DNA of 64,000 bases from positions 1-64,000 of the forward strand of contig JADZCV010000019.1 of NCBI GenBank assembly GCA_020851375.1, written 5' to 3'. How positions within the stretch are numbered: position 1 is the stretch's first letter; the number at the start of each line of letters is the position of its first letter. The translations under genes were made by a program, and so were the position numbers. The notes under the pieces were generated by a model that saw nothing but the letters and a program-made list of their open reading frames with translations, did not search any database and had not been told where the DNA came from. This document shows positions 8,686 through 13,753 of this stretch, piece after piece. This DNA comes from Nitrospirota bacterium. Lineage in GTDB: Bacteria; Nitrospirota; 9FT-COMBO-42-15; HDB-SIOI813.

Positions 8686-9624
8686 CTACTGAATGGACCT
8701 TGTACGGCCGGAAGAGGTCTGTGCCAGTTTTTTTGCAGCTATATACTCGTGAGGAATTCCTTCCACCTTGGAATTCCTCAAACCAAGCACATATATAGTC
8801 AGGTCCTTTGCCTGCTCCTCAGTAAGGCCAAAATTGGGCATTATGGTAGCAGCAAAGTTCATCTCAGGATTGCCGGGAACAACCTTCTGTGGATCAAGAA
8901 AATGTTCATATATCCAGTGTGCCATTGTATGATGACCTTCGATATGCTGGAAATCATGAATCAAAAAGAAGGCGAGTTCTGTCTTGCTGCCCAAGCCTGT
9001 GAGTTCCGGACCGATCGTGCCGCCAGTGCCATTTATGTTGTGGCACCCCCTGCACCCAAATTGAAAAGAAAGGTCCCTGCCTCTTAAGAATGCAGCAGCT
9101 CCTGGGAAATCTGCGGCTGTTATTGAGTTATCATGCAGCTCCATATGGCATTTGGGGCACGACGACTGGGCATACTCCTGCGCCAAAAGCTGGCGATTGA
9201 GGTGATGAACTGCCCCATGGGTCCCTTCCACAGAAACTACCTGGCCGTCACCCTGATGGCATACAGTACAGCCAAACTTATCCATTGGATGGGTCTTAAG
9301 AAAATCACCCGGATGCGCAGTCAGCGGTTGAGGTTCATCAACAGCAAGAGGATTGCTTACCCCCATATGGCAGGTAATACACCTGTCCGTAGTATTTAAT
9401 TGCGGAAGCCATATCTGATCTATTTTGAGTGGCGCCTTGAGATACGATGGGTCATTCAGCTTCGATGCCATCTTTTTATTGTAATTCCTCTGATAATGCA
9501 TCCACTCTTTGTTATTCTCCCTGTAGAAAATAAAAATTGCAATGATCATAATAATAACAACTGCAGCGGCAAATATCTTATTCCGCTTTCTCATGACTGC
9601 TCTATCCCAGTTACGATCTTTCAT
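8686..9624 (-). CDS. membrane-anchored tetraheme cytochrome c of the bc-type complex
   Basis: With the ATG at 9624 the protein has 312 residues; the frame runs 23 codons further, but that stretch overlaps the 40-residue upstream gene. One membrane anchor (about residues 15-35) precedes four heme c sites: CITCH, CTVCH, CPKCH and CRGCH. The last sits in a mono-heme cytochrome c domain with TIGPELTGLG and a possible distal Met ligand in ATIMPNFGLT. The first part resembles multiheme domains fused to bc-complex cytochromes. It is the last core subunit gene of the Rieske/cytochrome b operon and probably takes electrons from the Rieske protein in the periplasm. Confidence 0.88.
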   Translation of the reverse strand: MKDRNWDRAVMRKRNKIFAAAVVIIMIIAIFIFYRENNKEWMHYQRNYNKKMASKLNDPSYLKAPLKIDQIWLPQLNTTDRCITCHMGVSNPLAVDEPQPLTAHPGDFLKTHPMDKFGCTVCHQGDGQVVSVEGTHGAVHHLNRQLLAQEYAQSSCPKCHMELHDNSITAADFPGAAAFLRGRDLSFQFGCRGCHNINGTGGTIGPELTGLGSKTELAFFLIHDFQHIEGHHTMAHWIYEHFLDPQKVVPGNPEMNFAATIMPNFGLTEEQAKDLTIYVLGLRNSKVEGIPHEYIAAKKLAQTSSGRTRSIQ

Positions 9625-9628
9625 AATG

Positions 9629-9751
9629 TTACTTTCTCTTATTAGTCCTCTTGTATAAATTCTCCATATAACTGGAAACACCCATAATACCAAAAGTAAT
9701 TATTGCAGTCACGATTACGAAGAATACCCCTATGCCAAGTCTTTGCAACAT
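9629..9751 (-). CDS. 40-residue single-span membrane peptide, putative small bc-complex subunit
   Basis: This short gene starts at ATG 9751 and stops with TAA at 9629-9631, giving 40 residues beginning MLQRLGIGVFFVIVTAI and ending in a basic tail (LYKRTNKRK). Residues about 5-26 form one hydrophobic helix, and the positive tail suggests N-out/C-in topology. It has a good GGTGGAG ribosome site, fills the 140-base gap between subunit IV and the tetraheme cytochrome, and its end holds the GAGAAAG site of the next gene, 4 bases on. By analogy with PetG/L/M/N of cytochrome b6f or CcoQ, it may be a small structural subunit. That role is inference. Confidence 0.72.
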   Translation of the reverse strand: MLQRLGIGVFFVIVTAIITFGIMGVSSYMENLYKRTNKRK

Positions 9752-9763
9752 ATTGTCTCCACC

Positions 9764-10591
9764 CTAAATTTTAAACCACGGTGTCAGCACTACATATTTT
9801 ATATTAAAAACAAGCCTGAGTCCGATTTTTACAGGTATGCCAATCATTATGAGATACATTACCGCCAGAGGCACATACCTGACCAGACCGAGCTTTTTAA
9901 CAAAATCCTTAAAATACATTGCCGGTATAATAAGGCCGGCCCCAAAATACGCAAGCACTATAAGGTCTGACAATGCCTTTCCTGCAAACACACCTATACC
10001 GAGTACTCTTGCAAAGATAATTGGCAGGTCTTCAAGGCCAGTAGCCGGGGGTTTGTGTACATGGGCATTATCCCACGGCCAGTACCAGTTCCAGTCAAGA
10101 CCCCTGAACCAGACGCCAATGACAATAAGCACCAGCCACAGGGCCATGCCAAATGAATAGCTGGTTACAGCAAATTTACGTTCCGAGAAGGTATAATAGC
10201 CCCTGCCCCTGGGATTTCTGTCGAGGAAGGGTATCAGCATCAGACCGCCTGCAATAAGAATAGGAAGTCCGACACCTGCTATCCACGGGTCAAAAAATAC
10301 AAGCAGTTCCTGAAGACCCAGAAAATACCAGGGCGCCTTCATCGGATTTGGCGTTGTATCCCGGCTTGCCTCTTCTTCAAGGGGTGCGCCAAGATAAACA
10401 GAGGCAAAGAGAAGGAGGCCTGTCACAATTAATACACAGAGAAATTCAAGATAGAACAGATGCGGCCATGAAAATATCGTATCTTCCGGTTCTTTTTCGA
10501 TACCCGGGGTTGTCCCCTTGACGAGCTCCATCAGACCATATGTCTTATCAGGATCTCTCGGGAAAATATCGTGAGATTTCTCTGCCATCAT
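9764..10591 (-). CDS. cytochrome b C-terminal subunit (subunit IV/PetD-like)
   Basis: The protein has 275 residues with several membrane spans. The Qo-site signature appears as KAPWYFLGLQE (about residue 85), in place of PEWYF; this 'PxxAPWYF' form is typical of menaquinol-oxidising complexes of Nitrospira-type and epsilon/deltaproteobacterial organisms. Two ATGs are adjacent at 10591 and 10588; GGGAG is better spaced to the second. Compared with plant-type subunit IV (about 160 residues) it carries about four more spans after FLDRNPRG. It is encoded right after cytochrome b, so the b subunit is split into b6-like and IV-like parts. Confidence 0.92.
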   Translation of the reverse strand: MMAEKSHDIFPRDPDKTYGLMELVKGTTPGIEKEPEDTIFSWPHLFYLEFLCVLIVTGLLLFASVYLGAPLEEEASRDTTPNPMKAPWYFLGLQELLVFFDPWIAGVGLPILIAGGLMLIPFLDRNPRGRGYYTFSERKFAVTSYSFGMALWLVLIVIGVWFRGLDWNWYWPWDNAHVHKPPATGLEDLPIIFARVLGIGVFAGKALSDLIVLAYFGAGLIIPAMYFKDFVKKLGLVRYVPLAVMYLIMIGIPVKIGLRLVFNIKYVVLTPWFKI

Positions 10592-10604: not shown

Positions 10605-11381
10605 TTATAGCGGGCCTGAGAACCCGTCTTTCCTTACCCTCCAGAAATGGACTGCAAGGAATAACACTACAAGCATTGGCAGTACTACACAATGAAGCAC
10701 ATAGAATCTTAGGAGGGCGTTCTGACCCACCTCAGTACCGCCAAGCAGCATAAACTTCACATCATTGTCGGGCCTCATGCCAAGCTGTGTCCCGAAAGGT
10801 CCTTCAACACCAAACAGCGGGGTTGCAGCAGCCATCTTTGTTCCCACGGTAATAGCCCAGAGTGCAAGCTGATCCCACGGAAGCAGATAGCCGGTCCAGC
10901 TTAACAACAGTGTAAGCATCAAAAGCACCACACCTATCACCCAGTTGAATTCGCGGGGAGACTTGTACGAGCCTGTAAGAAATACCCTCGTCATATGTAT
11001 CCAGACTGTAGCAACCATCCCCTGGGCAGCAAACCTGTGTATGTTTCTGAATGTCGTCCCATACGAAACAACAGTCATCATATCCTTGATATCCTGATAG
11101 GCACGCCTGACATCAGGTACGTAATAGAACATCAGCATAACACCTGTTAATGCGAGCATTACAAATAACAGGAGTGATACACCTCCCATGCACCATGTAT
11201 ATCTGAATCTTATGGACTCCCATCTCGTCTTAACAGGATGGAGGTGATACAGGACATTGCTGAATGTAGTAAGCGACCGGTTGCGAGGCGTATCTTCATA
11301 ACCATGACGGAATACAGCCTTATAGACTTGTGTGCTCTTTATCCACTCTGTTATCTTATCCGACTTACCGCTGGCCATCAT
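10605..11381 (-). CDS. cytochrome b, b6-type N-terminal subunit
   Basis: The protein has 258 residues with four membrane helices. Heme ligands are visible as H115/H129 (NIHRF...WIHM, 13 residues between) and H230/H245 (LHCVV...AVHFW, 14 between), the spacing seen in b6-type proteins. [11 protein letters not shown] matches the quinol-site helix region. It would hold the two b hemes, and a c-type heme ci is possible but not provable here. The second ATG (11378) has better spacing to the AGGGGAGGA site than the first. It sits between the Rieske and subunit IV genes with gaps of 12-13 bases. Confidence 0.94.
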
Positions 11382-11393
11382 TCCTCCCCTTAA

Positions 11394-11924
11394 CTACACG
11401 TTCAAAAAGAACGGCTCTACCTCACGTGAGGCCTCATCAACCCTTAAACCCTGCTCTGTTGATACAGGATCAGGGTCCTGCCTGTGGTTAAAGTCCACAA
11501 CAATCTGTCCATCAGTGGGATCAATCTTGATCGCTGCACGCCACAGGAGCCTTGGTGACGGCCCTCCTAATACATTCCCTTCTATACTAAAAATGCTGCC
11601 ATGACACGGGCAAAGGAACGCCTGTTTGTCCTGAAACCAGTTAGGGGTGCAGCCAAGATGCCTGCATATGGATATCATCACATAAATACCGCGTTCATTG
11701 CGGACTACCCATACCTGCCTCTCTTTCTTCCACTTCTCACTAAGTCCCTCAGGATAATCCGATGGCTTGCCTATTTTAAAGACCTTCTGAGTTTCGTACA
11801 GCACATTAGGGAAATAAAATTTATAGAAGCTGTATGCAGACCCGCCGAACGTAGCAGCAATCCCGCCCCACCCGACTAAAGAGAAAAAGTCCCTTCTTGT
11901 TATTGTCTCATCAATATCTTTCAC
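11394..11924 (-). CDS. Rieske 2Fe-2S protein of the bc-type complex
   Basis: The protein has 176 residues. Cluster ligands are C87 and H89 in CRHLGC and C105 and H108 in CPCHGS; C92 and C107 can form the usual disulfide. The N-terminus (TRRDFFSLVGWGG) is a twin-arginine-like signal/anchor, so the folded domain is probably exported by Tat while staying membrane-bound. Its ATG overlaps the flavoprotein stop codon by four bases (ATGA), indicating translational coupling. It passes electrons from quinol oxidation to the c-type heme subunit. Confidence 0.95.
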   Translation of the reverse strand: MKDIDETITRRDFFSLVGWGGIAATFGGSAYSFYKFYFPNVLYETQKVFKIGKPSDYPEGLSEKWKKERQVWVVRNERGIYVMISICRHLGCTPNWFQDKQAFLCPCHGSIFSIEGNVLGGPSPRLLWRAAIKIDPTDGQIVVDFNHRQDPDPVSTEQGLRVDEASREVEPFFLNV

Positions 11925-13753
11925 TTATTCGAAACCTCTTCAAACTCCTCTATATATTCAAATATCTCCATAGTTACGGCGCCTGTAGGGCAGCGCTTGG
12001 CGCAATGCCCGCATCTTATGCACATATCTTCATCCTTTATCATTGCTGTGCCCATCTGTGCCACCGCAGCCCTGTCGCCAACAGCAAGCTCTTCCCATGA
12101 AATCTTATATCTTGCCTCAACCACCTTTCTTAAGTTTTCATCCCCGTCTATTTCCGTTACAGGGACCATCTTAAGACAGTACGTTGGACACACATCAACA
12201 CACCCTCCGCAGAGTATGCACAGGTCACCATCAAATATTGTATTTATGTGACACTTCAGACATCTGATCCCCTGTTCTGTGGCTGCATCTTCTTTATATC
12301 CTATCTCAACAAGGTCTACGTTCTTCTTTCTTGCCCCCGCATCTATTGCCGGAGGCTCTTCCCTCTCAAGACGGTCATAGTCCCTGAACATCTTATAATC
12401 TTTTGGCCCTGCAACAGGGTGCATGATGCCCCTTCGCTTTATCCGGATACTTACGCCCCTAAGATATTCATCAATAGACCTTGCGGCCTTCTGTCCAGCA
12501 GCCACAGCAGTAATCAGGAGCTTAGGCCCATACGCCACATCACCTGTTGCAAAGATGCCGGGGACACTCGTTTTATAGTTATCAAGGTTAACCTTTAAAA
12601 CGCCTGGCCTTACCTGTTCAATCCCGTCCTCTTGTTTTATAAATGAGAGATCTGCCCCCTGACCAACGGTAATGATCACCGTGTCGCACTCTATTACAGT
12701 CTCTGAGTTGGGAGCAAACTGCGGATTAAACCTCTTATTCTCATCAAACACACTTAAGCATTTTTGAACCTCAAGCCCTGTGACCCGGCCGTCTTTTCCA
12801 ACTATCCTCTTAGGGCCAAAACCGTCGTGAAGGATGATACCTTCTTCTTCACCTTCCATTATCTCAACCGGATCAGCAGGCATTATACTTCTTGTCTCAA
12901 GACATGACATATGAACCTCTTTATCCGGCCCAAGTCTTACAGCAGACCTTGAGGCATCGTAGGCCACATTACCACCACCAATTACCACTATCTTTTTGCC
13001 GATCTCAGGCGGTCGCCCGTAATTACATGCCTTGATAAAATCCATCCCTATATGTACGCCTTTTAGATTCGTTCCTTCTATAGGCAGGGAGCGGCCATTC
13101 TGCAAACCTACTGCTATGAGAATCGCCTTATAACCCATATCTTTCAGATTAGCAAGCGTCAGGTCTTTTCCGACAGGCGTGTTGCACCGAATCTCAACAC
13201 CCAAAGCCTCAATGGATGCAATTTCAGATTTGACAAGCTGTCTGGAAAGTCTGTAGTGGGGAATTCCAAAAACCATCATACCGCCCGGCTCTGGCTCTGA
13301 CTCAAATACAGTGACTTTGTAGCCAAAGAGTGCCAGATCATGCGCAGCAGTGAGCCCTGCCGGCCCTGCGCCAATTATGGCTACCTTCTCTGCAGTTCCG
13401 GGTTTTAGAAGTTCTCTGCGGGTTTTTGAAAATCTGAGGACGCCGCGGGGATCGGCTACAGCCTCAACACCATACTTTTCTGTTACAAAACGCTTAAGGG
13501 CCCTTATTGATACGGACTCATCAATATTCCCCCTCCGGCATGCAGCTTCACACGGATGGCCGCATATGCGGCCGCAAACTGATGCAAAGGGATTGGGCCC
13601 CCTCGCAATTGCATAAGCCCTCTCATAATCGCCCTCGGCAATCGCCTGAACATAACCGCCAGAGTCAGTTCCAACCGGGCACGAGCTTCTGCATTTTACC
13701 TGTTCAGCAAAGTAGTCCACATCAGGGACTACCACCTTATACCTGCTCTTCAA
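11921..13753 (-). CDS. glutamate-synthase-like FAD/NAD(P) oxidoreductase with C-terminal ferredoxin domains
   Basis: The protein has 610 residues. The N-terminus has GltD-type Fe-S cysteines (CRSSCPVGTD, CGRICGHPCEAACRR; about 20-75). An FAD-binding IIGAGPAGLTAAHDLA (about 125) and a second nucleotide site VVIGGGNVAYDASR (about 245) follow. The C-terminus carries two [4Fe-4S] ferredoxin motifs, CILCGGCVDVCP and CIRCGHCAKRCP. It is cytoplasmic by composition. It leads the Rieske/cytochrome b operon and overlaps the Rieske gene by four bases, so it may connect NAD(P)H or ferredoxin with the quinone complex, as proposed for NAD(P)-oxidoreductase-containing bc complexes of anammox bacteria. Direction of electron flow cannot be inferred. 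Confidence 0.88.
   Translation of the reverse strand: MKSRYKVVVPDVDYFAEQVKCRSSCPVGTDSGGYVQAIAEGDYERAYAIARGPNPFASVCGRICGHPCEAACRRGNIDESVSIRALKRFVTEKYGVEAVADPRGVLRFSKTRRELLKPGTAEKVAIIGAGPAGLTAAHDLALFGYKVTVFESEPEPGGMMVFGIPHYRLSRQLVKSEIASIEALGVEIRCNTPVGKDLTLANLKDMGYKAILIAVGLQNGRSLPIEGTNLKGVHIGMDFIKACNYGRPPEIGKKIVVIGGGNVAYDASRSAVRLGPDKEVHMSCLETRSIMPADPVEIMEGEEEGIILHDGFGPKRIVGKDGRVTGLEVQKCLSVFDENKRFNPQFAPNSETVIECDTVIITVGQGADLSFIKQEDGIEQVRPGVLKVNLDNYKTSVPGIFATGDVAYGPKLLITAVAAGQKAARSIDEYLRGVSIRIKRRGIMHPVAGPKDYKMFRDYDRLEREEPPAIDAGARKKNVDLVEIGYKEDAATEQGIRCLKCHINTIFDGDLCILCGGCVDVCPTYCLKMVPVTEIDGDENLRKVVEARYKISWEELAVGDRAAVAQMGTAMIKDEDMCIRCGHCAKRCPTGAVTMEIFEYIEEFEEVSNK

Follow-up and report, generated by a model that had tools for sequence, protein, structure and literature searches.

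The operon and its small open reading frame

In the operon of a Rieske/cytochrome b6-subunit IV complex from a member of the Nitrospirota, the gap between the gene for subunit IV and that for a tetraheme cytochrome c holds an open reading frame (ORF) of only 40 residues, which raises the question of whether this ORF is a gene and, if so, what its product contributes to the complex. The operon lies in a window of 64,000 nucleotides, the whole stretch of DNA analysed here, which belongs to a 2.5-Mb Nitrospirota genome that is 98% complete (G000). The nearest named relative among the loci compared is Nitrospirae bacterium RBG_16_43_11 (L082), whose subunit IV is 87% identical. All genes of the operon are encoded on the minus strand. 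They run from the GltD-like oxidoreductase through the Rieske protein, the cytochrome b6-type subunit, the extended subunit IV and the small ORF to the tetraheme cytochrome c, and are listed here from the head of the operon, with the evidence for each in brackets:

11921 to 13753, minus strand: GltD-like flavin/iron-sulphur oxidoreductase, head of the operon (PF07992, PF14691 and Fer4 domains; same place in families f1, f10 and f24)
11394 to 11924, minus strand: Rieske iron-sulphur subunit (PF00355, E 6e-9)
10605 to 11381, minus strand: cytochrome b6-type subunit (PF00033, E 2e-39)
9764 to 10591, minus strand: subunit IV, PetD-like and extended, 275 aa (weak PF00032 and TIGR01156 matches, alignment, AF2 model)
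9752 to 9763, minus strand: 12-nt spacer that holds the ribosome-binding site of the small gene, GGTGGAGACAAT (sequence, and Shine-Dalgarno (SD)-like motif in relatives)
9629 to 9751, minus strand: small single-span membrane protein gene (ORF, ribosome site, NF052408 match, dN/dS, conserved place)
8686 to 9624, minus strand: tetraheme c-type cytochrome with an N-terminal membrane anchor, 312 aa (four CxxCH; PF00034, E 7e-6)

The small ORF starts with an ATG at 9751 and closes with a TAA ending at 9629, and its product is MLQRLGIGVFFVIVTAIITFGIMGVSSYMENLYKRTNKRK. Its start context, TTTAGGGTGGAGACAATATG, contains a clear GGTGGAG/GGAG ribosome site, and 12 nt separate the ATG from the stop codon of subunit IV (a TAG ending at 9764). 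The initial annotation had placed a 40-residue ORF with this start and ribosome site at these coordinates, and the sequence bears it out. The product contains a single hydrophobic stretch, with a best 19-residue Kyte-Doolittle mean of 2.57, followed by a basic tail, so that the helix and tail ascribed to it are present as well. Only 4 nt lie between its stop codon and the ATG of the tetraheme cytochrome at 9624, a start that is backed by those of relatives (MINRKWE.. and MIDHKWE..) and opens a translation with four CxxCH motifs. The ribosome site of this downstream gene had been assigned to the last codons of the small ORF (AAGAGAAAGTAACATTATG); these are indeed the only possible place for it, but the match is weak.

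The host complex had also been referred to as a menaquinol complex, a label that is unproven. Searches of the 98% complete G000 genome with two models, MqnC and MenD, yielded only sub-threshold matches, and two UbiA-family prenyltransferases are encoded. Nitrospira, a genus of the same phylum, contains methyl-plastoquinones only (PMC12324825), and the quinone of G000 may be a plastoquinone derivative. At the other end of the operon, the GltD-like oxidoreductase occupies the head position in families f1, f10 and f24 and is not found upstream of the Rieske gene in families f25, f31 and f38; where present, it could connect NAD(P)H or ferredoxin with the complex.

Coding status and conserved features

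The length of the ORF is in itself unremarkable, as 100 ORFs with 35 aa or more overlap this 13-kb region; it is the constraint on its frame, together with the presence of homologues in the corresponding position in relatives across the phylum, that identifies it as a real protein-coding gene under purifying selection. Among ten sequences from family f1, differences at codon positions 1, 2 and 3 number 324, 254 and 801, counts that are sums over pairs and therefore not independent, although the contrast between frames is large. The ratio pN/pS in the frame of the small ORF is 0.25 for these ten members, as against 1.19 and 1.23 in the other two frames, so that constraint is confined to this frame. 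Mean dN/dS over non-saturated pairs is 0.136 in f1, 0.096 in f25 and 0.044 in f10. Relatives had been proposed as the place to look for a conserved reading frame and a codon-position bias, and both were found there.

ATG serves as the start codon in every homologue, and an SD-like motif precedes it in 30 of the 31 distinct members of the family. All 31 possess a single hydrophobic helix and share the core pattern GIGxFxxxGTxxxxxxxxGxxxWxERxFKK, in which T15 and E30 are invariant. In each of them lysine and arginine are commoner in the C-terminal tail than before the helix, and the positive-inside rule accordingly predicts a periplasmic (outside) N-terminus and a basic cytoplasmic C-terminus. 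Members from family f10 are longer (71-73 aa), having an extra N-terminal segment that ends in PYR and a longer tail, and those from family f25 carry a shorter version of the N-terminal segment (MDDLWAYPYRLGIG).

Relation to a catalogued protein family

The window gene is a divergent member of an already catalogued family, NCBIfam NF052408 ('NOVXTKCP family nitrogen cycling protein'). Its product matches this model with an E-value of 1.5e-8 and 34.6 bits, and residues 4-39 align to positions 10-45 of 46, which is nearly the whole model; the two are of the same length class, the window copy being without the N-terminal YPYR segment. Because the score lies under the curated cut-off of 60 bits, the family name would not be given to the window protein automatically. 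The gene, which was overlooked because of its size, is thus not wholly unannotated, and in relatives it belongs to a catalogued family. The model matches 31 of 31 distinct members, and scores in the genome scan run from 98 down to about 27 bits, families f25 and f38 providing the best members at about 85-98 bits.

The form of the name, NOV followed by five characters, suggests that NOVXTKCP originates from the FESNov catalogue. The FESNov paper by Rodriguez del Rio et al. includes a 48-aa family in its nitrogen-cycling figure, the legend of which lists petC, petB and norC (PMC10849945), and this family is presumably the one modelled by NF052408. The name NOVXTKCP itself is absent from the text of that paper, and a literature search on the name returned no publication. 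In the flanks examined, the quinol complex and the tetraheme cytochrome are the neighbours, and no enzyme of the nitrogen cycle was recognised; the 'nitrogen cycling' label is therefore probably misleading, a by-product of the petC/petB(/norC) neighbourhood.

Distribution and history in the Nitrospirota

Of the 396 Nitrospirota genomes sampled, 40 carry the small gene, as 41 copies distributed over at least eight families (f1, f10, f22, f24, f25, f31, f32 and f38). In line with the suggestion that related genomes would carry a single-span peptide in the same gap, 37 of the 41 copies come immediately after subunit IV, on the same strand; the f25 members, for instance, which score over the NF052408 cut-off, are situated between subunit IV and the tetraheme cytochrome c exactly as in the window. 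Three further copies are at contig ends (G003, G070 and G085), and in the remaining one (G240, locus L066) an inserted block parts the small gene from subunit IV while the cytochrome gene still adjoins it. One genome, G034, contains two copies of the operon, each with its own small gene.

Two loci depart from the usual arrangement. The insert in L066 (3037-7087) spans 4 kb between subunit IV and the pair of small gene and tetraheme cytochrome, and by eye its content comprises a beta-propeller/IPT-domain-like protein, a 233-aa protein and a HEAT-repeat-like protein. In a Troglogloeales genome of family f32, a 153-aa monoheme cytochrome (L072, 954-1415, minus strand; same operon as L093) takes the place of the tetraheme cytochrome, and the small gene is kept.

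Presence of the small gene follows the type of subunit IV with which it is associated. Where subunit IV scores at least 440 bits, the small gene is always present in the sampled genomes, broken contigs being allowed for. More distant subunit IV genes, with full-length scores below 270 bits, occur in Nitrospirota and many other phyla and are mostly followed by octaheme cytochromes; in none of the sampled genomes are they accompanied by the small gene. Between these lies family f2 (four genomes, L016-L019; subunit IV at 390-395 bits), in which the small gene is absent and the tetraheme cytochrome follows subunit IV at once. In the subunit IV tree, the carriers and f2 form one clade with support of 100/99, within which f2 is nested with moderate support (91/86). 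Owing to this nesting, one gain and one loss constitute the simplest history, according to which f2 lost the small gene and kept the complex with its tetraheme cytochrome. The retention of a very similar complex in f2 also indicates that the peptide is dispensable for the chemistry. Beyond the Nitrospirota, no match to the family was found in 20 genomes with a distant subunit IV relative (nearly all from other phyla) or in 199 from the phylum to which Brocadia belongs, both being sets that contain no positive control. A single clade of this complex thus accounts for all occurrences of the small gene.

This distribution bears on two other readings of the gene. The product is very unlikely to be a membrane peptide with a function of its own, whether toxin-like, regulatory or as a translational coupler, that merely resides in the operon. 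Small membrane peptides can be toxic, and the YonT type I toxin model gave a weak match (E 0.006, 16.7 bits); this match, however, is far under the cut-off of 45 and is limited to one of the 31 members. The position is fixed across many families with one copy per operon and strong purifying selection, a conserved protein sequence would not be needed in a pure coupling device, and, contig ends apart, no unlinked, operon-independent copy was found in the 396 genomes, all of which argue against such a function.

A second reading, considered unlikely though better placed than the first, is that the protein acts in the assembly or maturation of the complex, for example in inserting the cytochrome c anchor or in heme handling, and is not a bound subunit. 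CcmD exemplifies a small protein that acts in such a manner. Operon place, translational nearness to the cytochrome gene and an occurrence tied strictly to the complex would fit this function equally well, and in L066 the small gene remains with the cytochrome, 4 kb away from subunit IV. Against it, the small gene of f32 does not follow the tetraheme protein: it stays behind subunit IV despite the monoheme replacement, which indicates that its tie to the b/subunit IV core is at least as strong. Moreover, an assembly factor would not need one gene per operon copy, yet G034 has two.

Comparison with known small subunits

The initial annotation had likened the product to PetG, PetL, PetM and PetN. 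As a conserved single-span gene that belongs to a Rieske/cytochrome b operon, it is most economically read as encoding a small subunit, and this part of the proposal stands; homology to PetG was not found, and the resemblance would be one of analogy. Like these b6f subunits, the protein has about 30-40 residues and a single helix and is a probable partner of a cytochrome b6 and subunit IV complex. It differs from them in that its presumed partner is a tetraheme cytochrome c in place of cytochrome f, and in that its gene is embedded in the operon. True homology to PetG (or PetL, PetM or PetN) would be favoured by the similar length, the one helix with its predicted N-out/C-in orientation, the basic tail and the split of the complex into b6 and subunit IV. 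In the b6f complex, PetG adjoins subunit IV and has its C-terminus on the cytoplasmic side (PMC9342900). Profile-profile comparison with PetG (PF02529) by hhalign, however, gave a score of 11.1, which lies inside the shuffled-PetG null (mean 9.3, 95% point 14.1). None of the 31 members matched PetG, PetL, PetM or PetN in Pfam at E-values up to 5, and a profile search of all PDB chains returned chance matches only, without any PetG, complex III or b6f chain. Common descent with the Pet subunits is accordingly a reading to which little credence can be given.

Other small subunits provide further points of comparison. FbcQ, the subunit IV of the Rhodobacter sphaeroides bc1 complex, raises activity about threefold and crosses the Rieske and cytochrome c1 helices (PMC10041115). 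As a lineage-specific, single-helix and probable extra subunit, the small protein resembles FbcQ and the mitochondrial QCR9/UQCR10 of bc1 complexes, whereas FbcQ, at 124 residues, has its gene outside the operon, and the small protein has no sequence match to such PDB chains. It also resembles FixQ/CcoQ of the cbb3 oxidase, a short single-span subunit near membrane-anchored c-type cytochromes, although its operon is without a cbb3 oxidase subunit. A weak FixQ match in 3 of the 31 members (best E 0.013) and the matches to Pfam DUF families were not significant, the window protein itself matches no Pfam family, and its sole match in PHROGs is a weak one to an unknown family (E 7e-4).

Proposed role of the small protein

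The fixed operon place, one copy per operon, purifying selection, single span and restriction to a single clade of the complex together suggest that the protein is probably a supernumerary subunit with one membrane span, in a Rieske/cytochrome b6-subunit IV complex of the tetraheme type that is specific to the Nitrospirota. It combines one predicted transmembrane helix with conservation alongside the complex, two features expected of this functional class.

As such a subunit, the protein would insert its helix with a short periplasmic N-terminus and a basic cytoplasmic tail. Its small-residue face (GIG...GT) might pack on subunit IV and/or on the membrane anchors of the Rieske protein and cytochrome c, and the invariant glutamate of the WxER motif, at the cytoplasmic interface, could make a polar contact. 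The protein would thereby stabilise or help to assemble the b/subunit IV core and seat the cytochrome c. Parallels for a stabilising or assembly role are offered by PetG, PetL, PetM and PetN in the b6f complex, by QCR9 in the mitochondrial bc1 complex and by FbcQ in that of R. sphaeroides.

An AF2 model, for which subunit IV and the small protein were joined by in-frame read-through of the TAG and which was used for the helix count only, contains five long membrane helices in subunit IV at low confidence (mean pLDDT 65). If subunit IV starts inside as PetD does, its C-terminus would therefore lie outside, beside the N-terminus of the small protein. The small helix reaches a pLDDT of only 56-61 in this fusion model, values at which a packing site or interface cannot be claimed from it; an alignment that also held small proteins alone was misaligned and was discarded.

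Significance for the Nitrospirota

What is new here is the extension of the catalogued family to at least eight Nitrospirota families, its strict tie to one b6/subunit IV clade and the pattern of a single gain and loss, together with corrections to three labels: PetG, menaquinol and nitrogen-cycling. It may tentatively be imagined, although the odds are against it, that the Nitrospirota independently evolved a PetG-like picket subunit, which had a single origin together with the tetraheme variant and tunes the complex, perhaps for methyl-plastoquinones or for reverse electron transport. Inventories of the complexes of iron-, manganese- and nitrogen-oxidising Nitrospirota rest on genes called by pipelines, and a conserved single-span subunit that is missed by its size or labelled as nitrogen-cycling would alter the composition expected of complex III in this phylum. 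The small gene would also represent a case of the independent acquisition of small helices round a cytochrome b core, for which its loss in family f2 provides a natural comparison.
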